Shown piece after piece: positions 2,017 through 26,295 of a DNA stretch of 29,827 bases. Numbering within the stretch: position 1 is the stretch's first letter; each line of letters starts with the position of its first letter. The stretch comes from a virus. The stretch spans positions 1-29,827 of the IMG/VR virus record IMGVR_UViG_3300031707_000119; one strand, 5' to 3'. The position numbers and the translations under genes are program-made. Below the pieces are notes generated by a model. That model ran no database searches. It had not been told where the DNA came from and saw only the letters and a list, made by a program, of their open reading frames with translations.

Positions 2017-2043
2017 AAAAAAGCCCCCGGTTTCCCGGAGGCC
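2016..2043 (-). terminator. rho-independent terminator of the late operon
   Basis: Read on the minus strand, GCCTCCGG pairs with CCGGGGGC (8 pairs, one G-U) around a GAAA loop and is followed directly by seven T residues. It stands about 40 bases after the stop of the last late gene and faces the convergent integrase. There is no T-run on the plus-strand side, so it acts on the late transcript only. Confidence 0.85.
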
Positions 2044-3208: not shown

Positions 3209-3619
3209 CTAGACACAGCAGTAGGCCACTCGGCAGGTCGCCGTATTGGCATCCGCCTTGTGCTCTATTTTTAGACTAATATTAAAATTCCAAACCCCCC
3301 AATAAAGCTCATTTACGGCAGGGGATTCCCCGGCTATCTTGGCCGCCATGTCCGTTATTATGGCCGTCCCATCAACCGTTATCTTGAGGAGTTGGTATTT
3401 TGCATCGGCCATGTTCCCCCCGGTGAACAGGATGGCTTGACCTTTTCCCGTAAGATCGACGACGGTCTCATAGGCCCCGCCCCCGCTGTGCGTGTCTGTA
3501 GCCGCCGTTGTGTAAATCATTTCCCCTCCCCCTGCCCCCGCCGTTAGTGAGCTAAGGCGTGTGTTGATATTTCGGAGTGCAGCTTCGTATTCTTTTTTAC
3601 TGGGCCAGGCATCGCTCAT
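3209..3619 (-). CDS. small phage tail-associated protein, unknown function
   Basis: A 136-residue protein. It starts with a helical segment (SKKEYEAALRNINTRLSSL, about residues 6-24), then a Gly-rich linker (TAGAGGGE), then a beta-rich C-terminal domain with VDLTGKGQAILFTGG and YQLLKITVDGTAI, ending in CCV. A short helix followed by a beta-sandwich is the usual layout of trimeric phage receptor-binding or fibre-tip proteins, but I do not recognise a family. ATG 3619 is chosen because GAGGAGG lies 6 bases upstream; a longer reading to 3658 ignores this site. It overlaps the end of the upstream gene by 23 bases and sits just before the glycosidase-like gene, in the tail-fibre part of the operon. 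Confidence 0.6.
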   Translation of the reverse strand: MSDAWPSKKEYEAALRNINTRLSSLTAGAGGGEMIYTTAATDTHSGGGAYETVVDLTGKGQAILFTGGNMADAKYQLLKITVDGTAIITDMAAKIAGESPAVNELYWGVWNFNISLKIEHKADANTATCRVAYCCV

Positions 3620-4499
3620 GCGCGTCCTCCTCGAATGGAAAGCCGATCCCCCGGACACTCTCTCGCGGCCGGAATGGCGGGTCGCTCACGAGTTCCACGA
3701 CGTGCCGCTCCGCCGCCGGGACCGAGGGCACGATAAGATCAAATATCGGCGTGCGCACGACAGCGATCCCGTGGTAAACGTCCCAGCTCATCGGCATCGA
3801 AAGAAGCCCCTGGAGGATATCGGCCAAAGCCTTATTCGTCGTCCAGGCCAAATCCATCCGCTCGGCCGCAACTAGGATCGTATCCTGACAATAGAAGGCG
3901 TGGGGAATGTGGAACCCAACCCGCAGGCCCGCATAGCGAAGGACGGGATTCGCAAATGGATGGCCCTGGACTCTTATATGCCTTTCGCCGACAATCGTAT
4001 GCTTGGAGTTCAGGGCCGCCTGCCATATCGGGTCAAAATATCCTTTGGCCCAAGTCGCGCAAAAGAACTCCCGGCAGCATTTTGGGAACCCCAGAAGTTC
4101 GCCCTGTGCGTCATTATCGCCCCGCTCGAAAGCCGCCTTGAACCTCAGGGTATCCGCAAGCGTCTTGGATATGATGACGCACAGGCTAGCCCGCTCGCCC
4201 GCCCGTGGCTCCTCGTGCCGGTGAGCAAATCCGTTAAAGTTTCGAACTCGCTTGATCGGCAGACTGACAAGCCCCTGTTCAGCCCAAGTCGCCGCAAGTC
4301 TCGGGAATTGGTCCTCGCCTATCGTCTGCCATGCGCAAGGCCGATGTCCCGCCGCGACGCTCGAAACTTCAAGGTCCGATACCATCGCCCCGATTTTGGG
4401 GATGATAGGAGCCCATTCTTTTCGCGCCTCTTCGCTCAGCCAGACAGTCCGGCATGACGGCGCCAGGTCAAGTCCCGGAATCAGTTTCATTTCAGACAT
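3597..4499 (-). CDS. unknown protein with GFPKCC motif next to the radical SAM enzyme
   Basis: A 300-residue protein beginning MSEMKLIPGLDLAPS. The gene overlaps the radical SAM gene by 8 bases. Its middle has ELLGFPKCCREFFC, a Gly-(Phe/Tyr)-Pro-x-Cys-Cys pattern reminiscent of uncharacterised DUF483-like proteins. Later it has VGFHIPHAFYCQDTI, giving further His and Cys residues that could bind a metal. The N-terminal part has another Cys (APSCRTVW), plus PCAWQTI. There is no signal peptide or membrane segment. Its position between a peptide-modifying enzyme and tail genes suggests an accessory or partner in the same modification (substrate binding, second-step enzyme or scaffold), but that is inference. 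A longer reading to 4712 would overlap the SPASM region of the neighbouring gene in another frame and was rejected. The family assignment is weak. Confidence 0.6.
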   Translation of the reverse strand: MSEMKLIPGLDLAPSCRTVWLSEEARKEWAPIIPKIGAMVSDLEVSSVAAGHRPCAWQTIGEDQFPRLAATWAEQGLVSLPIKRVRNFNGFAHRHEEPRAGERASLCVIISKTLADTLRFKAAFERGDNDAQGELLGFPKCCREFFCATWAKGYFDPIWQAALNSKHTIVGERHIRVQGHPFANPVLRYAGLRVGFHIPHAFYCQDTILVAAERMDLAWTTNKALADILQGLLSMPMSWDVYHGIAVVRTPIFDLIVPSVPAAERHVVELVSDPPFRPRESVRGIGFPFEEDAHERCLAQ

Positions 4500-5691
4500 C
4501 GGTATGATCTCCGTGTGGCTTATCCCCGTGCTCGTCGCCGTGCGCATCGCCGTGGCCGGAGCCTCCGGCCCATTTTCGCGCCCGTTCGTTCGAGTCCTTG
4601 AACTTAATATCCGGCATGATACCCCGCAATCTGGCCCGGACATGAGCGAAGAGCATCTTATATGCCTCGCAGAACCGGGTCCGGTTCCGCCAATCATTGT
4701 CGATACCCGCACCTCCGCAACCCCCGCTGCAAATACTCCAGAACTCGCATCCCTTACAGCCGCCGAGTTCCTGGGGGATCATCGCCAGGGCATGAACCCT
4801 TTCAGCACCGGGCCCCTCTGCGGCGAGCGCCTGAATCCCGTCCAGGGCCGCCCCCCCCTTGAGGCAGACACCGATGCCGCCGTCCTCCATGATGGCCGTC
4901 TCGGCTTGGGTCCGCCAGATATCGCAGCCGTTGAACGTGCAGGTCGAATCGCCGCCCTCGATGAGCATCTTCACGACGTCCCGGTAGGGATACCAGGCCC
5001 GCCCCGGATCCCCGAAGCAGAGATTCGCAAGCTGGACGAAAGCCGATCCCAGCTCATTGGGCGTCAACTCCTCATCCCGGAACCGGTCCTCATAAACGAT
5101 GACTTCATTAGTTCGGACTGACCGGATTCCCATGTTCTCCAGCCGGAGCAGGAACATCTCCGTAGAGCCAATAATATCCGGGGCCGCGTTGTATCGGCGG
5201 AGAAGCACGATAGCCGATACGCACAGTCCGGCTTCCACGGCCCGCTCCATATTTTCGAGCGTCTTATGTGTCAGCTCTTGAATCTTGCCGGGTGTCAGGT
5301 TGCCGTCATTCCAGCGGCCCTGATTCGTCACCGCCGTATCACCATCGATTGAAACCCCAACCCCGACGTTGAACTCCTTGAACATCGCCAGGTGTTCATC
5401 GGTTATAAGGACGCCGTTTGTCTGGATGGATGCCTTCCCATAAAGTTCGAACATCGTTTTAAGAATCGTTCGCAAATCGGTCAGCGGGAAAAGAAGCGGC
5501 TCGCCGCCGTGGACGCAGGGGGCCGAGTATTTTCGCCGGTTCTCCGGCGTCTCTTTCTCTGCCTCCCGGCGCAAGGTCGCCAGCATGGCTTCGAGATTAT
5601 AGGCGACTTTACCTTGCGTCTTTCGTATCCGCCGCTCATAGCAAGATCGACAAAGCCCGTTGCAGTCCATCAGCTTAAAATGCAGTCCCAT
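4492..5691 (-). CDS. radical SAM/SPASM peptide-modifying enzyme with His-X-Asp tail
   Basis: A 399-residue enzyme. C10-x3-C14-x2-C17 (CNGLCRSCY) is the canonical radical SAM [4Fe-4S] site; HGGEP at 61-65 and SIQTNG at 88-93 are the SAM-binding strands. The C-terminal SPASM domain is complete: C256-x14-G-x4-C276, then C312-x2-C315-x5-C321-x3-C325, then C341, so two auxiliary clusters are expected. Enzymes of this class, such as anaerobic sulfatase maturases and RiPP maturases, modify protein side chains. Residues 380-398 carry HGD four times and HTD once, copying the repeats of the tail protein encoded just upstream. The ATG shares one base with the TAA stop of that tail gene (TAATG), so the two are translationally coupled. 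The substrate is inferred to be the repeat tail. An anaerobic host and a ferredoxin or flavodoxin partner would be needed. Confidence 0.9.
   Translation of the reverse strand: MGLHFKLMDCNGLCRSCYERRIRKTQGKVAYNLEAMLATLRREAEKETPENRRKYSAPCVHGGEPLLFPLTDLRTILKTMFELYGKASIQTNGVLITDEHLAMFKEFNVGVGVSIDGDTAVTNQGRWNDGNLTPGKIQELTHKTLENMERAVEAGLCVSAIVLLRRYNAAPDIIGSTEMFLLRLENMGIRSVRTNEVIVYEDRFRDEELTPNELGSAFVQLANLCFGDPGRAWYPYRDVVKMLIEGGDSTCTFNGCDIWRTQAETAIMEDGGIGVCLKGGAALDGIQALAAEGPGAERVHALAMIPQELGGCKGCEFWSICSGGCGGAGIDNDWRNRTRFCEAYKMLFAHVRARLRGIMPDIKFKDSNERARKWAGGSGHGDAHGDEHGDKPHGDHTDV
4495..4554 (-). repeat. C-terminal His-X-Asp repeats of the radical SAM enzyme
   Basis: The last 20 codons encode five aromatic-X-Asp triplets (HGD, HGD, HGD, HGD, HTD) with 0-2 residue spacers, the same pattern as the C-terminus of the neighbouring tail protein. 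This may be a substrate-mimicking dock, an automodification site or a metal-binding tag. Confidence 0.75.
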
Positions 5692-8600
5692 TAATACTCC
5701 GAATCTCCGTGGGCGATATTTCCGTGCAGATCCTGGTGGGTGACGTCCTCGTGGGTTACGTCCGCGTGCGCTTCGTCCAAGTGCGTATCGTCGGCGTGCG
5801 TATCGACGTGCTCCCGGTCCCAGTGCTTGTCCAGATGCGCCGTGTTCAAGTGTTCATCTGTATATTCATCAACGTGGGTATCCGTGTGGCCATCCGCGTG
5901 CGTGTCCGTATGGTCAGTGTCTACATAAGCTGTGTTGGTGTGTCCGTGATCGTCATAGGCAACATTCTCGTGGTCGATGTCCGTGTAAGCGCTATCCTTA
6001 TGGGCATGGTCGTTATGCTCGAAGTCGGAATAGTGATCCCCGTGACCTACATTGGCATGATCTACATAACTGTCCTGGTGCGGAATATCGGTATGCGGGA
6101 CATCTGAATGGCTCCCGCTATCTTGGTGCGGCGTATCCTCGTGTGGGGTATCCGTGTGCGAAGCGTTCCCGTGAGGCGTATCCGTATATGCCGTATCCCC
6201 ATGAGAATTAGCATGAGTAACATTCGCGTGGGTGTCATAATGGGATTCGACGTGATCCTCGTCGGAATAGGGCGTATCGTCGTAGCTGTCGGCGTGGGGG
6301 ATGTTCGTCCAGTCATTCGCGTGGGTGTCGTCGCCGTGGCTGTCCTCATGGGGAACGTCTTCGTGGATATCGGTATGACTGTCGGAATGGGTGACATCAT
6401 TGTGCATGGCCCCCGTGCTCTGGATGTCCAGAACCGCTTCGACTTCGACCGTCGCCCGACCGGCGTTTTTTACCAGCGTCAACGCTCGGTAAACGTCCTC
6501 ATCAAGAACGGTCTGTGCGTTCCCCTCGCCGTCACGGATGGCTTTCGATATGACGATTTTCTCCGCTGGCCGGTGGCCCAAGAGTAGCGCCGGGACCGAT
6601 CCGGTTACACGCTTTTCCGGCGAGCGGATGATATTCAAATAGAACTGGGCCAAAAGCGTCGCGTCGGAATCGACCGTCAATAATGTTTCCTTCTCCAGCA
6701 CTTCGGCCTGGTCATATCGGAGCGCTATCTTCGCGTCCGTCACCTCTTCCGCCAGCCAGTTCTGGGTCGTGGGGTCTTGGCCGTACTTTACGACAACGGA
6801 TTTGCGGACCGGCGCTGTGTCATAAGCCAGGGAGAACGAGGCCATATCGAGTTGGTCAATCCGGGTCTCGGTCCCCGTTGTCCCTGCCGCATAGCGGAAT
6901 GCGCCGAATGTCCCGTTCGCCAACGGGATAAGGTGGAATACATTCGAGTCCTGGAGCTTCCGAATAAAATCCAAAACGCCGCCGGAAGGTTGGTCTGTCA
7001 AATAGGCGGCCAGCGGCTGGACCCGGTTCGCCTGAAGGTCCAGGAATGATTCCAGATCGATTTGGCTCTTCGGGATTGCCGGAGAATTGAACACGGTCAG
7101 GACTGCGTATAGGATATCCGCGCCGATGTTGCTGTAGGTTGCGTCCTGAATCTTGCACTTCGCGCCCTTCGCCTTGCAGGTAATGACGGCTCCCTCCGGG
7201 TCTGCAACAAGCTGAAACCAGCCATTAGCCAAACTTACGGAATAGTCCGTAGTCAGCGTGAGCGTGGCCCCGTTCTTATAGACTGCACTTATGGCTTCCA
7301 GCGCGTGCCCGGCGATCTTGTATTTCCAAATCGTCGTGTCGATACAGACTGGCGTAATATTATCCAACTCGCCGAAAAGGATAGGGATGGCCCGGCCGAC
7401 GGCCGTCGGGTCCAGGTTTGCGTAAGTCGTCGTATCATAGAGGCCCGCCGGGAGTGTGCCGAAAAGCCCCTCCCGCGCGTCCACGATCTCGAAAGTCGCT
7501 TCCTTGTCGTTTATGGAGGGCCTTGACGTCCGGCCCAAGAAGAGCGTCCCGAGCTCCGCGTAATCCGAGTCGATGGCCCCGGCCTTCAGCCAGAACTTCT
7601 TTAAATGCCAGATGTAATCTTCGAGCGCTTCATACCACCAACCGTCGTTCCCATATCGGAGCCCGCCCGCGGAGAACGCGACGTCCCCGATGTAATAGTC
7701 CCCGACGCTCTGGGTTATTTCCGGCGCTCCGCCCTGCGGGATGATGGCCCGATAGGGCGTCGGCTCAAGGATTCTCACCAGTGAAGCGTCGTCCAGGTAA
7801 AAGTAATAGACTTCGCCGAGGTCGATCGTTCCGGTTTTTACAGTGAATTTATAATCCGAATAATCATCATCAGCCGTGAAGGGAACCTCAACCTCAGTCC
7901 ATCCGGCGCTCGTGACACCAGTGACCTCATTATCGACCACCGCGCCCCATGTTCCGACCGTCGCGTTATACCAGACGTTTCCGGCGCTATCCTCCAAGCG
8001 CCACTTGACCATGATGCCCGGCGAGGCTACCGAACTCTTGAGATAAAATTTCACCCGACCCTTACATTCCGGGCGAAGGATTATTCCTGATTGATAGAGC
8101 GAAAGCGCCCCGGTCGTCGCGGCCGGGAGATACCAGTTGTCCAGGTAAAAAGTATTGGCCGCGTCTGCGTTGACGACCGTGACGATGATCTTGTCGATGG
8201 CGTCCTTATTCGCGTCCGAAACGCCGGAGATGTCCCAGGTGACGGTCTGCCAGGTATCGACCACGAGAACATTCGGCGTCGTTTCGGTCGTCGTCCCGCC
8301 GCTGTCGTGAATACCGATCTTGATATTCGATCCGGTCCGCCCGGCGTAGATGTCAAACTTTATGGTATCAATCCCAGTGAGGTCAATCGGCGTCGTGATC
8401 GTCCGGGTCAGCGTCTTATTTAGGCTTGTCGTGATGGCCCCGACCGCCTTCAGGGAATATGTCCCCTCCTGCTTTATCGTGCCTTCGGAATAGGACTGAA
8501 GCGCCGGGGTCGTAAGTGCGACCTTAATGATAACAATGCCCTTGCCACCGTTTCCGCCCGCGCCATTATCGAGCGCCCCGCCGCCGCCGCCACCCGTGTT

Positions 8601-9902
8601 GGGCGTCCCGGAATTGGCCGCGCCCGCCGAATATCGACCATTCGCCCCGCCGCCCAGGCCGCCGAGGCCATAGCCGAATCGACCCGCCCCGCCGCCACCG
8701 CCACCGTAATATTCCCCGAAATACTCTAGGCCGTCTCCCCCGTCGCCGCCTATTTGACTGGCTCCATCAGCTCCAACCGTATCGGCTCCGCCGCCTCCGC
8801 CCCCAGCCAGGTAATTACTCGTCACGCCAAAGGGCATTGCATCGCCGCCGTCATTGCCCTGGAGGGCTGTCCCGGCACCACCGGCCGCACTCGCCCTTCC
8901 ACCACCACCGCCGCCCGACCCGCCGGGATCACCCGCAATTTCGCGTCCGCCCCCGCCGCCCCCACCTTTCGCGGTCATCACTCCGAAGATTGAATCGCCG
9001 CCGGTTGCGCCCTTGAGATCCCTGTCCGTGCCGCCGAGTCCACCTTCGCCGATCGTTACGGCCATCACCCCGCTGACCGAATAAACATCGTCGTATAGCA
9101 GTCCGCCCCCGCCCCCGCCTCCACCGCCGCACTCGGAGTTTATGTCACCGCCCCCCCCACCCCCGCCCGCGACGACCAAGACCTCGGCATCAACCGAGCC
9201 GGACAAGACCGTAAACGTCCCGCTCTCATAAAAGGTGTGGATGCGATAGCCACCGGCCATCGTTACGGTCCCGCCCGTCGTGTTATACTCAGCGATATAA
9301 GCCGCCTGAGCCAGGGCGTCCGTCGCGTACTCCATGCGCTCGAACCACTTGTCCCCGGCATCGACCGTGAATTTGGCCGCATAGGCCCCGCCGTGGACCT
9401 CCGTCGCCTCGCGACTTATAGATGAACCCGACGATTCGCTCTTCGTCCACTTAGCTAATGCGGTCGCACTTGTCCAGTCCTCCAACCCGCCGTCAAGTAG
9501 CTTCTCAATCTCCGGCTCAAATACCGGGTCCCTGCCGCTTGAATCCATGCGGTCGCTGAATCCGATTAGGAAATACCCCAAGATGCAAAAATCATAAACA
9601 CTAAGTGTCTGATGATTCGGGATGTCATCGGTTGAAGTGTGAAGATAAATTCGCGGGTCCGCCGGATCCAGGTCCATGAAAAACGTAGATTGCGTCGCAT
9701 CGCAATCCGCCACTGAAAAAACCTCGGCATATTCGGACCCGTCCTCGATGACTTCGATGATCTCCCCGTCCGCCATCGGCGTGTAATATGAGCCGCCCCC
9801 ACTGGCCGTCCACTCCAGATATTCCAACTCGATGGCCGGGTAGTGCTCGCAGACGACGAGCCGCCGGGAGTCGGGGAGTTCGAGCAGATCGGCGAAATTC
9901 AT
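5691..9902 (-). CDS. large tail hub/fibre protein with Gly-rich domain and aromatic-X-Asp tail
   Basis: A 1403-residue virion protein, placed after the tape measure and distal-tail-like genes where the tail tip hub is usually encoded. Residues 1-120 are hub-like. About 130-190 begins a carbohydrate-binding-like beta-sandwich. Residues about 210-462 are a phage fibre Gly-rich domain (GGYRIHTFYESGTF, LVVAGGGGG, long Gly runs). About 463-600 and 605-715 are further CBM-like segments, each ending in YLDN/YLDD. About 720-1160 is a hub/baseplate-like region (TDQPSGGVLDFIRKLQDSN). Residues 1167-1403 are about fifty H/Y/W-x-D/N triplets. It would form the tip of the tail and contact the host surface. 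Its stop overlaps the start of the radical SAM gene, and the gene begins 2 bases after the preceding stop. The hub role is inferred from gene order; the domains are seen. Confidence 0.85.
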   Translation of the reverse strand: MNFADLLELPDSRRLVVCEHYPAIELEYLEWTASGGGSYYTPMADGEIIEVIEDGSEYAEVFSVADCDATQSTFFMDLDPADPRIYLHTSTDDIPNHQTLSVYDFCILGYFLIGFSDRMDSSGRDPVFEPEIEKLLDGGLEDWTSATALAKWTKSESSGSSISREATEVHGGAYAAKFTVDAGDKWFERMEYATDALAQAAYIAEYNTTGGTVTMAGGYRIHTFYESGTFTVLSGSVDAEVLVVAGGGGGGGDINSECGGGGGGGGGLLYDDVYSVSGVMAVTIGEGGLGGTDRDLKGATGGDSIFGVMTAKGGGGGGGREIAGDPGGSGGGGGGRASAAGGAGTALQGNDGGDAMPFGVTSNYLAGGGGGGADTVGADGASQIGGDGGDGLEYFGEYYGGGGGGAGRFGYGLGGLGGGANGRYSAGAANSGTPNTGGGGGGALDNGAGGNGGKGIVIIKVALTTPALQSYSEGTIKQEGTYSLKAVGAITTSLNKTLTRTITTPIDLTGIDTIKFDIYAGRTGSNIKIGIHDSGGTTTETTPNVLVVDTWQTVTWDISGVSDANKDAIDKIIVTVVNADAANTFYLDNWYLPAATTGALSLYQSGIILRPECKGRVKFYLKSSVASPGIMVKWRLEDSAGNVWYNATVGTWGAVVDNEVTGVTSAGWTEVEVPFTADDDYSDYKFTVKTGTIDLGEVYYFYLDDASLVRILEPTPYRAIIPQGGAPEITQSVGDYYIGDVAFSAGGLRYGNDGWWYEALEDYIWHLKKFWLKAGAIDSDYAELGTLFLGRTSRPSINDKEATFEIVDAREGLFGTLPAGLYDTTTYANLDPTAVGRAIPILFGELDNITPVCIDTTIWKYKIAGHALEAISAVYKNGATLTLTTDYSVSLANGWFQLVADPEGAVITCKAKGAKCKIQDATYSNIGADILYAVLTVFNSPAIPKSQIDLESFLDLQANRVQPLAAYLTDQPSGGVLDFIRKLQDSNVFHLIPLANGTFGAFRYAAGTTGTETRIDQLDMASFSLAYDTAPVRKSVVVKYGQDPTTQNWLAEEVTDAKIALRYDQAEVLEKETLLTVDSDATLLAQFYLNIIRSPEKRVTGSVPALLLGHRPAEKIVISKAIRDGEGNAQTVLDEDVYRALTLVKNAGRATVEVEAVLDIQSTGAMHNDVTHSDSHTDIHEDVPHEDSHGDDTHANDWTNIPHADSYDDTPYSDEDHVESHYDTHANVTHANSHGDTAYTDTPHGNASHTDTPHEDTPHQDSGSHSDVPHTDIPHQDSYVDHANVGHGDHYSDFEHNDHAHKDSAYTDIDHENVAYDDHGHTNTAYVDTDHTDTHADGHTDTHVDEYTDEHLNTAHLDKHWDREHVDTHADDTHLDEAHADVTHEDVTHQDLHGNIAHGDSEY
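5694..6404 (-). repeat. aromatic-X-Asp/Asn repeat region of the tail protein
   Basis: Codons 1167-1403 encode about fifty triplets of the form H-x-D, with Y in place of H in several (YDD, YSD, YTD, YVD), W once (WTN), and N in place of D in about ten (HAN, HGN, HTN, HLN). Spacers are 1-2 residues, giving a period of 4-5. More than forty His residues are present. The middle residue varies freely, and codons vary between units, so selection acts on the protein pattern rather than on a recent DNA duplication. There is no Cys in the region. Confidence 0.9.
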
Positions 9903-13522: not shown

Positions 13523-14893
13523 TTATGCGAGATAATCCGCACTCCGGCTATTCTGGAGCACAACATAGACGGGAAGTAATAGGGCTGTCATGCCCGTCGG
13601 GCCGGGACTGTCTGCCGTCACTCCGCGCAATACGATCTTGGCCGGAATGATTTTGCTGTCCGCATACTCAACGTCCTCGACAATGAGCCGCGGGAAAACG
13701 AACCTCAGATAGTAATTGTATGCCCCATCGATAGCCGGGCCGGTGATCGTGATGTCCGCCTTTTTCTCCGTCGCGGCAATCCAGTCCGCGAAGTAGGCCG
13801 CATTGGTGGTGTCCATACGCGGAAATTCCATTGTCAGCTTGACGGATGGCTTGTCATTTTCAACCGGCTCAACGATTGTCTGGACGCCCGCGACGTGTTC
13901 CGAGTCCATCTTCCGCTCGATCTCAAGCGAGAATGACTTGGGCCTTATGATATCCGCACCCCCACCGTCGAAATCCAAGCCGGTCTGTGCGTTCATCTGG
14001 AACACGGCCTGGGTGAACTTCGCACGTGCGTGCGTGTTACCAGTGACCGTCGTCGAGGTAAAGGCCGTAGGGAGCGCCGAATTGTCCACGACGCTGATGC
14101 CCCGCAGGTTGAAAGCCGCCTTGATGAGCCCTGCGTTCACGGAGAATGAACCTTTCAGAACCTTGAACGTCGGCACGGTGTGGATCTTCGTCCCCTTCTC
14201 CGTCGCGTAAGTCCCGAATATCCCGAACGCCTTATTCAGCAGGACGAGGGAATGAAGGTAATTGAGCGCGATGCCGACACCCGCAACGTCCGACGTGTAG
14301 GTTGCCGCCCCGGTGTCGTCGGCCGCGTCTGAGTAACCCAGGAGCGTACTGCAATCCGTCGCCTTGCTTGTCCCCGAGAACCATTTCAACTCGAAATTCC
14401 CGCCCGCCGAAATCGTGAACTTCCTGGTCGTCGCGTCATGCGTGACGGTATAGGTCAAGGCTCCAACGGAGGCGTCGAGCTTTGCCTTGATTTCCGCGCA
14501 GAGCGCGGTTGCCGTATAGGTTCCGTTCGACAACGTAGCTTCTATTTGTGCCCCACCCTCCCCGAAGTCGAGTTTGTTGTTTGCGGCGCTCACGATGAAA
14601 TACATCCCCGGCAACCCGGCTGTCCCCATGAGCATCGCCAGGAGCAGATTCTCGCGTCCGTCCCATCGGTAGTCAAAATCGAGCGCGAAGTCCGTCGGAT
14701 TGATTACCCCGACATCGAGATTTGTCTCGAACGCTCCGTAACTTTCATCATCCATCATCTGGACTGCCGCCTTCGGAGCGCCCGGATTCAAGGGCAAGAA
14801 TCCCATCCCTGCCGCATCGGTATCGACGGCCGTCCCCCAGATCGCAGCCTTTTTGACCGCTGCCTTATTTAGCCTTTTCTCAATGTCCGCCAT
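13523..14893 (-). CDS. major tail tube protein paralogue 2, with inserted domain
   Basis: A 456-residue virion protein clearly paralogous to the one encoded just upstream (14906-15946). Shared features include the start MADIEKRLNKAAVKKA, FDYRWDGRENLLLAMLMG, HTVPTFKVLKGSFSVNAGL, SLEIERKMDSEHVAG, PSVKLTMEFPRMDTTNAAYF and VEDVEYADSKIIPAK. It differs by an insertion at about residues 97-208 (NNKLDFGEGG, GTYTATALCAEIKAKLDA, ATTRKFTISAGGNFELKW), a beta-rich module also found in other phage structural proteins. Gene order just before the chaperone pair fits a tail tube subunit. The insertion may be displayed on the outside of the tube. The tube function is inferred; the paralogy is plain. Confidence 0.75.
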   Translation of the reverse strand: MADIEKRLNKAAVKKAAIWGTAVDTDAAGMGFLPLNPGAPKAAVQMMDDESYGAFETNLDVGVINPTDFALDFDYRWDGRENLLLAMLMGTAGLPGMYFIVSAANNKLDFGEGGAQIEATLSNGTYTATALCAEIKAKLDASVGALTYTVTHDATTRKFTISAGGNFELKWFSGTSKATDCSTLLGYSDAADDTGAATYTSDVAGVGIALNYLHSLVLLNKAFGIFGTYATEKGTKIHTVPTFKVLKGSFSVNAGLIKAAFNLRGISVVDNSALPTAFTSTTVTGNTHARAKFTQAVFQMNAQTGLDFDGGGADIIRPKSFSLEIERKMDSEHVAGVQTIVEPVENDKPSVKLTMEFPRMDTTNAAYFADWIAATEKKADITITGPAIDGAYNYYLRFVFPRLIVEDVEYADSKIIPAKIVLRGVTADSPGPTGMTALLLPVYVVLQNSRSADYLA

Positions 14894-14905
14894 GTTGTCC
14901 TCCCC

Positions 14906-15946
14906 TTACGCGATGAAGCTCGTTGTGCGAAGGTTGGTAACGAAAATCCCGATCGGCAGGAGCCCCGTCAATCCCGTCTGGGCCACGTCCGCCATAGCAC
15001 CCCTGAGCACAACTTTAGCCGGGATGATTTTGGAATCGGCGTATTCGACATCCTCAATGATGAGATGCGGAAGTTGGATATTCAGGACGTATGGAAAAGC
15101 ACCAGCACAAGTCGGCCCGGTAACAATGATGTCGGCCTTCTTATCGGTTGCCGCCGTCCATACCGCGAAGTATGCGGCGTTCGTCGCATCCATGCGCGGG
15201 AATTCCATCGTGAGTTTCACGCTCGGTTTGTCGTTCTCGATGGGTTCGAGGACGACTTGGCTCCCGGAAACGTGTTCCGCATCCATCTTGCGTTCGAGTT
15301 CGAGGCTGAACGCCTTTGGCTTGATGATATGCCCGGACCCGAGTGTCGTACCCCCGCCTGCGAGCGTGTAATCATTCATCCTGAATACGGCCTGCTGGAA
15401 CTTGGCCCGGATGTGCGCGTTGGCAGGGACGGCCGTTGAGCCGAGAGTTGCCGTTCCGCTGGTGATATGGCTTCCCCGTAACGCAAATGCCGCCTTTATC
15501 AAGCCCGCACTGGTTGAGAACGTCCCCTTCATCACTTTGAATGTCGGGATTGTATGGACCTCGGTCAACTTTTCAACGGCATAGGAGCCGAAGAGTCCGG
15601 CGGCAGAGTTCACCAGGGTGACGGTATGCAGAATGGCTGCCGTGCCACCTTGCGGAGCCGGAGCCGTATCGACACCCATGAGGAGTCCGAGTAGGATATT
15701 CTCCAGGCCGTCCCAACGATAATCGAAGTCCAGGCTGAAATCTGAGACGGCATAATTGCCGACGTCCAGGTTGACGTCGAATGCCGACGCACTCTCATCC
15801 TCGATCATCTGGACATTTCGTTTCGGGACACCAGGATTCAACGGCAGGATCCCATTCCCCGCGCCGTCCAATCCCGCGATGACCGTTCCCCAGTCCGTCG
15901 CCTTTTTAATGGCCGCCTTATTGAGTCTTTTTTCAATGTCACCCAT
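14906..15946 (-). CDS. major tail tube protein paralogue 1
   Basis: A 346-residue protein, the shorter of two tandem paralogues. It lacks the roughly 110-residue insertion of the downstream copy and otherwise aligns over its length: MGDIEKRLNKAAIKKA, FDYRWDGLENILLGLLMG, HTIPTFKVMKGTFSTSAGL, SLELERKMDAEHVSG and IEDVEYADSKIIPAKVVLRG. As the first of the pair, upstream of the chaperone and tape measure and downstream of the tail terminator and ferredoxin genes, it is probably the main tube subunit, polymerising into stacked rings around the tape measure. GGAGGTCAAC precedes the ATG. Which copy is the true tube subunit cannot be told from sequence. Confidence 0.75.
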   Translation of the reverse strand: MGDIEKRLNKAAIKKATDWGTVIAGLDGAGNGILPLNPGVPKRNVQMIEDESASAFDVNLDVGNYAVSDFSLDFDYRWDGLENILLGLLMGVDTAPAPQGGTAAILHTVTLVNSAAGLFGSYAVEKLTEVHTIPTFKVMKGTFSTSAGLIKAAFALRGSHITSGTATLGSTAVPANAHIRAKFQQAVFRMNDYTLAGGGTTLGSGHIIKPKAFSLELERKMDAEHVSGSQVVLEPIENDKPSVKLTMEFPRMDATNAAYFAVWTAATDKKADIIVTGPTCAGAFPYVLNIQLPHLIIEDVEYADSKIIPAKVVLRGAMADVAQTGLTGLLPIGIFVTNLRTTSFIA

Positions 15947-15958
15947 GTTGACCTCCTA

Positions 15959-16306
15959 TTATTCCTCTATCGGCTCTATCGCTTCGACGGGACAGACAGC
16001 AACGCATTCGGCACAGCCGTTGCAGGTGTCCTCATCGATTGAATAGGGATCTGGCGTAATTGCCTCAACCGCACAGACTTCGATACACGCCGCACATTCA
16101 ACACAATCATCCTGATTAATCCTGTATTTCACGACAGGTGGTTCCACGACCTGTGATGCAAACCCTTCGGCAATCCAGGCACTCACCACGTTGTCCGGGA
16201 TGCTTTCCGGGATGCCGGGTTCTCCCGTATCGATGGTGGCTCCGACATCGAACCGTATCATTGTCGGAGGATAATGCTGATTTGATTTCTGCCACATGAT
16301 TTTCAT
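15959..16306 (-). CDS. phage-encoded 2x[4Fe-4S] ferredoxin-domain protein
   Basis: A 115-residue protein. Residues about 62-110 are a bacterial dicluster ferredoxin: C68-x2-C71-x2-C74-x3-C78 and C95-x2-C98-x2-C101-x3-C105, the second with the usual CP after the last Cys. All eight ligands are present, so two low-potential [4Fe-4S] clusters are expected. Residues about 15-60 (TMIRFDVGATIDTG, IPDNVVSAWIAEGFA) form a small non-ferredoxin domain that resembles short phage head-tail proteins. The gene is embedded between a tail terminator-like gene and the tail tube genes, 1 base after its upstream neighbour. It could donate electrons to the radical SAM enzyme of the same operon, or be a structural Fe-S protein in the virion. 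The motif is certain; the role is inferred. Confidence 0.88.
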   Translation of the reverse strand: MKIMWQKSNQHYPPTMIRFDVGATIDTGEPGIPESIPDNVVSAWIAEGFASQVVEPPVVKYRINQDDCVECAACIEVCAVEAITPDPYSIDEDTCNGCAECVAVCPVEAIEPIEE

Positions 16307-16307
16307 G

Positions 16308-16793
16308 CTAAACCCCCATGACTCCCGCGATTGATATTCGGACCTTTTGGTCGAAGAACCCGAATCCTTCCAAGCTCAGGTATCCGTCGTCCGTCTCGGG
16401 TGAGTCCTCGATCCTCGTCTGTACGGCCAGGACGCCCAATGTCCCTGCGGCCCCGCTCCGTGAGTCGGCGTCAATAGCCTTGCGCACGTCCGCGATACAG
16501 CGCTCCAACTTTGTCACCGTATCCGTGCTGTCCTTAACAATCCCCTTGACGGAGACGAAGAAGTCCTCGGTATATTCGCTATCGTCCCCTGCCGCCCCGC
16601 TCAATTCGACTGTCCCGCCGGGTGCGGAGAACACCATGTAGGTCGGGAAGGACTTGGCCTCGCTCCAGTGGATGAATCGTTTGGCAACGTCACCGGGCGT
16701 GTAAAAGTACGTTGCGCCCGTTGTAATACCTTGTAATACATCGACAATGCGATTGATGATCTGGAGGCGGAGCGGAACGGCTGGCGTTGTCAT
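16308..16793 (-). CDS. tail terminator/minor tail protein-like
   Basis: A 161-residue protein whose layout fits the tail terminator (lambda gpU-like) family that caps the tube. It has an N-terminal helix (VPLRLQIINRIVDVLQGI), beta-strands with SFPTYMVFSAPGGTVE, a central TEDFFVSVKGIVKDS followed by the helix TKLERCIADVRKAID, and a C-terminal strand pair ending FFDQKVRISIAGV. It lies upstream of the tail tube genes as in most siphoviruses. ATGA overlap with the preceding gene indicates coupled translation. Family assignment is by size, pattern and position. Confidence 0.6.
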   Translation of the reverse strand: MTTPAVPLRLQIINRIVDVLQGITTGATYFYTPGDVAKRFIHWSEAKSFPTYMVFSAPGGTVELSGAAGDDSEYTEDFFVSVKGIVKDSTDTVTKLERCIADVRKAIDADSRSGAAGTLGVLAVQTRIEDSPETDDGYLSLEGFGFFDQKVRISIAGVMGV

Positions 16794-24528: not shown

Positions 24529-25074
24529 TCATGTAATTTCTGACCTCATTCCCACGGCTCCACTTGCCATGATTTCGGCAACCGTGAGCACTACATTAGG
24601 TTGCATCATCGCCGAGAGAATCGGTTCTTGCTTTGCTATGACATTGCTAAACCAGCCAGAAGCCGGAATGTTTGACCCCGGATGATGGACATGACGCAGA
24701 AATCTCATTTCCGATCCGACCATGAAAGCCAGAGCTTTTCCTGCCTTCGCCTGAATGAGATGGGGTTTCGTTATCCCGCCCTTATCCTGAATGAGCGCAT
24801 AGGGGACTGTTTTCTTGCCGCCAATGCCCGTTCCGATGGCGATTTGCCAGCGATTATCACCCGACTGAATTTCCTTCCCGATGTTCCGCATCAGCATCGA
24901 GGTCTTCTTCTTGTACTTGGATGACTTCTGCATATTGGCCGCAGAGCGCATGAGGAGCCTGATCGTCTCCGCCGTCCAGGATGTGCATTGATACTTAGAG
25001 GCTTTTCCGAGATTCAAGAGCACGTTAGTTTTCTTGATCGCCCCACTAAAATCAGCCCTTAATCCAATGGTCAT
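24529..25074 (-). CDS. Mu gpG/HK97 gp10-like virion morphogenesis protein
   Basis: A 181-residue protein of the phage virion morphogenesis type that acts at the head-tail junction. The basic helical part has MQKSSKYKKKTSMLMRNIG. The conserved stretch YALIQDKGGITKPHLIQ, then KALAF, then HHPGSNIPASGWFSNVI, is the hallmark of the family: HPG-x-x-xPARPW, here with SGW in place of RPW. The first ATG overlaps the upstream HNH gene stop as ATGA. It lies between head-tail connector and tail genes as usual. The C-terminal 40 residues are helical and less conserved. Confidence 0.75.
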   Translation of the reverse strand: MTIGLRADFSGAIKKTNVLLNLGKASKYQCTSWTAETIRLLMRSAANMQKSSKYKKKTSMLMRNIGKEIQSGDNRWQIAIGTGIGGKKTVPYALIQDKGGITKPHLIQAKAGKALAFMVGSEMRFLRHVHHPGSNIPASGWFSNVIAKQEPILSAMMQPNVVLTVAEIMASGAVGMRSEIT

Positions 25075-25529
25075 ATCCTCTCCAAATAATCAGCGGCATC
25101 CCTTAATGTTTTCGGATTATCACGGAGAAGACCGATGCCCGTATTACATCTACCGCAAAGAATTCCGCGAATGACTCCGGTAATATGGTCGTGATCCACG
25201 TTTGGCCCGACTGGCCCCCAATCGGTCGATTTACATATGGCACATACATTGCCTTGTCCAGAAATCAAAGACATAAGAGCCTCCGGCGTCAGTCCGTAAT
25301 ATCTCCATAATTGCCGGGCCTTGAGCTTTTCTTTAATCTCCGGTCGTTGATTGTGGGCTTTATAGTAGGCGCTGTGTTTTGCCTTAATCTCCGGCTGTCG
25401 GGCATAGGCTCTATTCCGAATCTTGTGTCGCTCTTTGACTTCCTGTCTCTGACCATAGGCCCTGATCCGCTCTTTAACTTCCGGTCGCTGGCGGTAGGCT
25501 TTTTGCTGAGCCTTTTCCTTTATCGTCAT
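25071..25529 (-). CDS. endonuclease VII-like HNH nuclease with N-terminal repeats
   Basis: A 152-residue protein. Residues about 92-152 match the recombination endonuclease VII family: C96-x2-C99, then D112-H-D-H115 (NVDHDHITG), RGILCGRCN with C125-x2-C128, then GIGLL and the C-terminal helix DAADYLERI. The four Cys bind zinc and DHDH is the beta-beta-alpha-metal active site. Residues 1-70 are a basic helical array with at least four repeats of R/Q-P-E-V/I-K-E about 13-17 residues apart. It is coupled by ATGA overlaps to both neighbours, which is unusual for a freely mobile homing gene. It may resolve branched DNA before packaging or act as a homing-type nuclease. Confidence 0.85.
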   Translation of the reverse strand: MTIKEKAQQKAYRQRPEVKERIRAYGQRQEVKERHKIRNRAYARQPEIKAKHSAYYKAHNQRPEIKEKLKARQLWRYYGLTPEALMSLISGQGNVCAICKSTDWGPVGPNVDHDHITGVIRGILCGRCNTGIGLLRDNPKTLRDAADYLERI

Positions 25530-26092
25530 AGGATCGGCCTCTTGAACTTCGTCAACGTCAACTGCTGAGCCTTCGTTATCTCGAAAGCCGCGCTAACCGT
25601 GCTTGTAGACCCATCGGGCATCGTCCGCCCGCTCTCACCCCAACCCTGCTCCTTCATCGTCTTCCACGCCCGTGCGATCATCTCATAGCAGACCAATGCG
25701 ATATCGGTCGGGATTGTCGCGTATCCCGCCTCATAGCTGACGGTGAAGTTTCCAACCCCTTTCTCCCAGACATATCCACCGACCCGGCGAAGGCAAAACG
25801 TCTCTACGACGTATGCCTTATCGTACCCGACTAGATAGGTCACCCCTTCCTGATCGGCAACCGTATCAGCAACCGCCGTGATTGGCCAGTTTGGGAGGAG
25901 CAGGTCCGTTGTGCCGCGCCCGCTGACTTTGCTGGATGTATAGTGCGTGTGCTCTATGTCGCATCCCACTTCGCGCTTGACCCGATCCGAAACGGCCGAG
26001 ATGATTGCCGGGAGGATGGCGTCCCAGGTTGTGATAGACTCCCCCGGCCAGAGATAGCTCTTGACGTTTGCCAGTGTTACGAGATCGGCCAT
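25526..26092 (-). CDS. head-tail connector protein (gp6-like)
   Basis: A 188-residue protein of the phage head-tail connector type that extends the portal and joins it to the tail. The family-typical beginning is LVTLANVKSYLWPGESITTW with a following helix (LPAIISAVSDRVKREVGCDI), then LPNWPITAV, then FTVSYEAGYATIPTDIALVC followed by the helix YEMIARAWKTMKEQGWGESG, as in HK97 gp6 and SPP1 gp15 relatives. Its start shares a base with the TAA of the 67-residue gene (TAATG). It is the expected gene after the capsid region. Confidence 0.82.
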   Translation of the reverse strand: MADLVTLANVKSYLWPGESITTWDAILPAIISAVSDRVKREVGCDIEHTHYTSSKVSGRGTTDLLLPNWPITAVADTVADQEGVTYLVGYDKAYVVETFCLRRVGGYVWEKGVGNFTVSYEAGYATIPTDIALVCYEMIARAWKTMKEQGWGESGRTMPDGSTSTVSAAFEITKAQQLTLTKFKRPIL

Positions 26093-26295
26093 TATTTCCT
26101 CCGTTTGCGCTTGGGCGCTTCGGGTTCAGCTTTTGTCTCCGGCGGCCCATCGAGCATCTTGTCCTCTTCCGCGAGCCCGCCCTTGAGCCAACTTAGGGCC
26201 GTCGCCTCATCGATATCATCGGGGATGTGTAGTACTGTTCCGCATGGGAGCGCCCCCCATTGCCGGGCGATACGCTTTAGCGTTCGGATACGCAT
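26092..26295 (-). CDS. 67-residue protein between capsid and connector genes
   Basis: A short protein with a basic start (MRIRTLKRIARQWGALPCG), a middle TVLHIPDDIDEATALSWLKG, and a charged tail rich in Pro, Glu and Lys ending KRKRRK. The IPD...W..G pattern is also present in the N-terminal part of the ferredoxin protein of this phage. Small proteins of this kind are common between capsid and connector genes; their function is not established. TAATG coupling to the connector gene supports that it is real. Confidence 0.6.
   Translation of the reverse strand: MRIRTLKRIARQWGALPCGTVLHIPDDIDEATALSWLKGGLAEEDKMLDGPPETKAEPEAPKRKRRK

Follow-up and report, generated by a model that had tools for sequence, protein, structure and literature searches.

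A bacterial-type 2[4Fe-4S] ferredoxin domain fused to a small tail-block protein in a single phage lineage

An Fe-S protein from a tail gene block has been described in phage lambda. This protein, gpL, sits at the tail tip and has a single cluster, held by four Cys residues; its function is given as still unknown in PMC10721106, which cites Tam et al. 2013. An Fe-S role at virion entry or in stabilization was once proposed for gpL. A second relevant system is the radical SAM and DUF483 module of Thermus phages, for which DNA modification is suggested in the passages of PMC11437467 devoted to it. A third comparison is offered by the clostridial-type 2[4Fe-4S] ferredoxins, including 1fdn and 1clf.

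The stretch of DNA analysed here, termed the window, comprises all 29,827 bases of an IMG/VR record. It encodes a fusion in which a domain of the tail module is followed by a ferredoxin. The gene occupies a slot between a tail terminator-like gene and a presumed tail tube gene, and its Fe-S protein comes, as gpL does, from the tail gene block. Nevertheless, gpL as described in PMC10721106 is a conserved tip protein with one four-Cys cluster, whereas in the window two clusters are predicted in a small slot protein of a single phage. The features of the locus are as follows.

15959..16306, minus strand: fusion ORF, tail-module domain plus 2x[4Fe-4S] ferredoxin (ATG start, 115 aa, stop-free frame)
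16136..16306, minus strand: N-terminal domain, aa 1-57 (stand-alone homologues in 25 relatives; AlphaFold pLDDT about 80-96)
15962..16135, minus strand: ferredoxin domain, aa 58-115, standing where relatives have a variable, usually Lys-rich tail
16073..16105, minus strand: first CxxCxxCxxxC motif, C68, C71, C74 and C78 (motif reading)
15992..16024, minus strand: second motif, CxxCxxCxxxCP, C95, C98, C101 and C105 (motif reading)
16308..16793, minus strand: gene preceding the fusion, resembling a tail terminator (Pfam Phage_tail_terminator_7 4e-5, below cut-off; PHROG 3907 1.6e-3)
14906..15946, minus strand: presumed tail tube gene, following the fusion (by position only; conserved in 27 related records)
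2022..2043, minus strand: terminator-like hairpin closing the late gene string (consensus match only)

All eight ligand Cys are present in the fusion ORF, in two CxxCxxCxxxC motifs (aa 68-78 and 95-105). Comparison with Pfam gave matches above the gathering cut-offs for Fer4 (E=6.8e-12, 45.1 bits against 21.1), Fer4_7 (E=3e-10, 40.8 bits against 27) and Fer4_21 (E=6.3e-10, 39.5 bits against 35), while the cut-off of the FdxA_fam equivalog (NCBIfam NF058577) was missed with 42.4 against 65 bits. Matches among solved sequences include the classical ferredoxins 1fdn and 1clf, and the domain is 55-59% identical to a ferredoxin of 62 aa encoded in a bacterial genome (L130). With the clostridial-type ferredoxins (1fdn, 1clf, L130) the domain shares the two motifs, the length and 48-59% identity; it differs from them in being fused to a phage N-terminal domain and in having Ala for Pro after the fourth Cys of the first motif. 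The Pfam E-values together with the same-frame fusion to a conserved domain exclude a chance origin of the signal. Judged by its sequence, aa 58-115 is thus a bacterial-type 2[4Fe-4S] ferredoxin domain, in agreement with the original prediction of a dicluster ferredoxin with all eight Cys.

The start of the fusion gene lies 1 nt past the tail terminator-like ORF, and 12 nt separate its end from the next structural gene. A site between tail terminator and tail tube genes had been proposed; the location in the tail block stands, while the terminator match lies below its cut-off and the tube label is positional, as the protein encoded at 14906..15946 matches no Pfam or PHROG family and is named from its position alone. 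Two tandem genes at 13523-15946 (minus strand) encode clearly similar proteins (346 and 456 aa) that match no family and are presumed to be tail tube paralogues.

Relatives of the locus were collected with the presumed tube protein, which gave 23 viral records, and with alignment-based scans, which contributed three further viral records and a bacterial MAG contig. The interval from terminator to tube was readable in 25 of these 27 records, and every one of the 25 has a stand-alone slot protein of 57-86 aa that aligns with aa 1-57 of the window protein at 34-53% identity. This bears out the original reading of a small phage-type N-terminal domain, since the homologues hold the same gene position. 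Where the window carries the ferredoxin, these proteins have a variable C-terminal tail, mostly Lys-rich (e.g. KPKKIKKAIGG). An Fe-S motif is absent from the slot proteins of all 25 readable relatives, no intact-frame CxxCxxCxxxC was found in the related loci, and a Fer4_7 HMM search over the whole related records matched the window only. The relatives thus share the N-terminal sequence and lack the ferredoxin, and the window protein is therefore a fusion with an additional C-terminal domain, known to date in one phage only. Alignments of N-domain subsets (A4, A5) scanned against viral contigs returned known contigs only, none of them with a ferredoxin; a further alignment, A2, was too divergent for scanning.

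AlphaFold with the family alignment modelled aa 1-57 as a confident small fold of strands and one helix, and the ferredoxin half with pLDDT <65, which is low because the relatives carry no ferredoxin part. A single-sequence model of the whole fusion was poor (mean pLDDT 49.9) and was set aside. With the N-domain as query, a PDB fold search found nothing at E <0.001, while Foldseek against BFVD found small uncharacterised phage proteins with probability up to 1.0 and best E 0.015. Bacillus subtilis YqbF (2hjq) was a weak match (Foldseek E=0.9, VIA Z=3.9), and neither YqbF nor the BFVD proteins, similar in fold only weakly, contain a ferredoxin domain. The window encodes a second small protein of this kind:

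26092..26295, minus strand: small protein of the N-domain kind, beside the gene for the head-tail adaptor (hhalign E=6e-6, probability 85%)

It has a Lys/Arg-rich tail, and the neighbouring adaptor belongs to PHROG 442. The N-domain appears to represent a small domain common in phages, followed by a C-terminal tail that varies.

That the N-domain brings the ferredoxin to the tail, inside it or on its surface, and that the clusters there have a stabilizing role or act at entry, is suggested by the slot between the terminator and the presumed tube and by the conservation of the N-domain in every readable relative. Against this, the ferredoxin is missing in relatives whose tube proteins are 90% identical, and neither Pfam nor PHROG gave a match to the gpL family. 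The eight-Cys Fer4 architecture and the gene position, upstream of the tube and tape measure genes, likewise differ from gpL, so that the analogy originally drawn with that protein is unsupported. We regard a virion Fe-S protein as unlikely.

Ferredoxins were also sought beyond the relatives. A close-relative scan seeded with the full fusion protein gave no matches, nor did tblastn of the fusion against public phages. A ferredoxin search of 50,697 public phage records gave no convincing match; at loose limits only partial matches appeared, at E 0.1 or worse and mostly in unannotated fragments. A general ferredoxin scan of viral contigs yielded 41 pattern matches, none of which was confirmed, and none was found in the plasmids searched. 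The fusion protein has a weak match to PHROG 16249, a family of phage proteins that bears the name ferredoxin. This match and the nearly complete, ordinary character of the domain would fit a host-directed auxiliary metabolic gene, the product of which serves as a free ferredoxin and sustains host electron flow in infection. A late structural gene string is nevertheless an unusual site for a metabolic gene, and the fusion was seen in one phage only, which makes this role distinctly unlikely.

The slot itself differs from its surroundings. The window and its relative L003 are 95% identical in the terminator and 90% in the tube but 52% in the slot protein, and in general the flanking proteins are 90-95% identical to those of relatives and the slot protein about 50%. 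At the DNA level, divergence from a relative begins right after the slot start codon and the match resumes at the tube gene. The relatives L009 and L002 compare in the same way (terminator 93%, tube 86%, slot 40% identical), and in two others HNH endonuclease genes lie beside the slot (L006, 481-1029; L045, about 5650-5991). An endonuclease VII-like gene of the window sits elsewhere, at 25071-25529. Because the flanks are conserved while the slot diverges, and because HNH genes adjoin it, the slot appears to behave as a recombination hot spot. Base composition was considered as a sign of foreign origin and rejected: third-position GC is 0.50 in the ferredoxin part against 0.70 ± 0.07 in other genes, and the slot genes of relatives are also below their flanks, so that a low value is not diagnostic of import. 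The same low value, in a single metagenomic record, could point to an assembly chimera in which a bacterial ferredoxin gene was joined to a phage contig. However, the frame is kept, the ORF has its own stop and ribosome-binding sites are in place, and both flanks are continuous with the relatives; given same-frame junctions and exact gene borders, a chimera is very unlikely.

Radical SAM enzymes require a low-potential one-electron reductant, and such an enzyme is encoded in the window next to a large tail protein.

4492..5691, minus strand: radical SAM/SPASM gene, proposed electron acceptor (Pfam Radical_SAM 1.6e-7; family alignment)
5691..9902, minus strand: large tail protein with a His-x-Asp repeat array at its end (about 5694-6415); a possible substrate of the radical SAM enzyme

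The fused ferredoxin could accordingly have been a dedicated donor, reducing the [4Fe-4S] cluster of an enzyme whose target would be the His-x-Asp repeats in the tail protein. That general requirement for a reductant speaks for this proposal, as does the arrangement of the two genes on one strand in one tightly packed gene string, as originally stated for the operon, and the sole ferredoxin-bearing record does encode the enzyme. On the other side, the genes are 10 kb apart, the radical SAM gene lying downstream. Moreover, 6 of the 28 tube-family records carry the enzyme, so that a single ferredoxin would fall beside one by chance with a probability of 0.21, and its presence in the ferredoxin phage is for this reason uninformative.

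Co-occurrence across phages, proposed earlier as a check, was examined with a Fer4_7 HMM search over the whole of 44 other phage records with the radical SAM family: five of the tube family, in which the enzyme is 71-93% identical to that of the window, L029/G024, the Thermus phages Cumys, phiLo and phiMa, and 35 further viral records. The search was positive in 14 of 14 control genomes and gave no match in the 44, a number that overstates the independent cases because some records are fragments and some near-duplicates. The weightiest ferredoxin-free cases are G009 (42.6 kb, enzyme 93% identical) and the three complete Thermus phage genomes. Radical SAM gene and Fer4_7 thus occur together in 1 of 45 records, the window itself, and regular co-occurrence failed. 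The dedicated donor was not borne out, and we consider it doubtful. Evidently the enzyme is kept without a phage ferredoxin; in such carriers it presumably draws on host reductants. Since none of the 44 other carriers has Fer4_7, the ferredoxin is a one-off accessory fusion with no fixed enzyme partner, although in this one phage it may be a helpful but optional donor. A more specific version, in which a ferredoxin tethered to a tail-assembly protein feeds the enzyme locally and the His-x-Asp repeats of the tail tip are modified, is very unlikely; were it true, Fe-S redox chemistry would be coupled to tail maturation.

The radical SAM gene is part of a cassette (3597-6415, minus strand) consisting of the tail protein with its long [H/Y]-x-[D/N] array, the radical SAM/SPASM enzyme, which most resembles cyclophane-forming peptide maturases, and a GFPxCCxxF (DUF483-like) protein; related cassettes are found in L025-L029, L031 and L077-L118. 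A His-x-Asp-rich ORF lies near 37 of 42 related radical SAM loci. In the Thermus phages Cumys and phiMa (PMC11437467) the enzyme belongs to the radical SAM family of the window and again has a DUF483-like neighbour; their genomes, unlike the window, have no ferredoxin. The repeats find no mention in the passages of PMC11437467 on the module. Their presence suggests a protein substrate rather than DNA. A short His-x-Asp tail is also present at the end of many of the radical SAM proteins (in the window GHGDAHGDEHGDKPHGDHTDV, 4492-4570, minus strand; L031, 13170-13215; L029, 11040-11098), as if the enzyme bears a piece of its own substrate. In the 178.5 kb Thermus phage phiLo (L074) the radical SAM relative adjoins a gene annotated as methyltransferase and has His-Asp-rich stretches in its C-terminus too.

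Taken together, the probable explanation is accessory capture in this phage lineage, in which a small conserved tail-block protein (57-86 aa) would have been extended at its C-terminus by an entire 2[4Fe-4S] ferredoxin domain of bacterial type. The ferredoxin is absent from every relative found. The fusion protein would be made late, alongside the tail genes, and its N-domain would retain its usual role; the predicted ferredoxin part should fold with two clusters and could carry single electrons. More tentatively, the ferredoxin domain may be a passenger or an optional accessory in a slot prone to recombination, needed neither for tail assembly nor for the radical SAM pathway. Were the domain in use, its likeliest recipient would be the co-expressed radical SAM enzyme, for which host ferredoxin or flavodoxin presumably serves as reductant in relatives. 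Counting against an accessory, the ligands and the reading frame are intact, which suggests selection or great youth, two causes that look alike in one sequence. On the sequence comparisons made here, the ferredoxin part was most likely acquired recently and is either an optional electron carrier or a passenger domain.

The ferredoxin-slot fusion is real, unusual and specific to a single lineage. Among the searches made here there was no second fusion of a ferredoxin with a tail-module protein, and the case illustrates how a redox domain can be acquired by a small gene of the tail module. Of greater importance in the window is the cassette of His-x-Asp repeat, radical SAM enzyme and DUF483-like protein. 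Other carriers retain the radical SAM system and have no phage ferredoxin; its electron donor should therefore be sought in the host, and this sharpens the test of the cassette.
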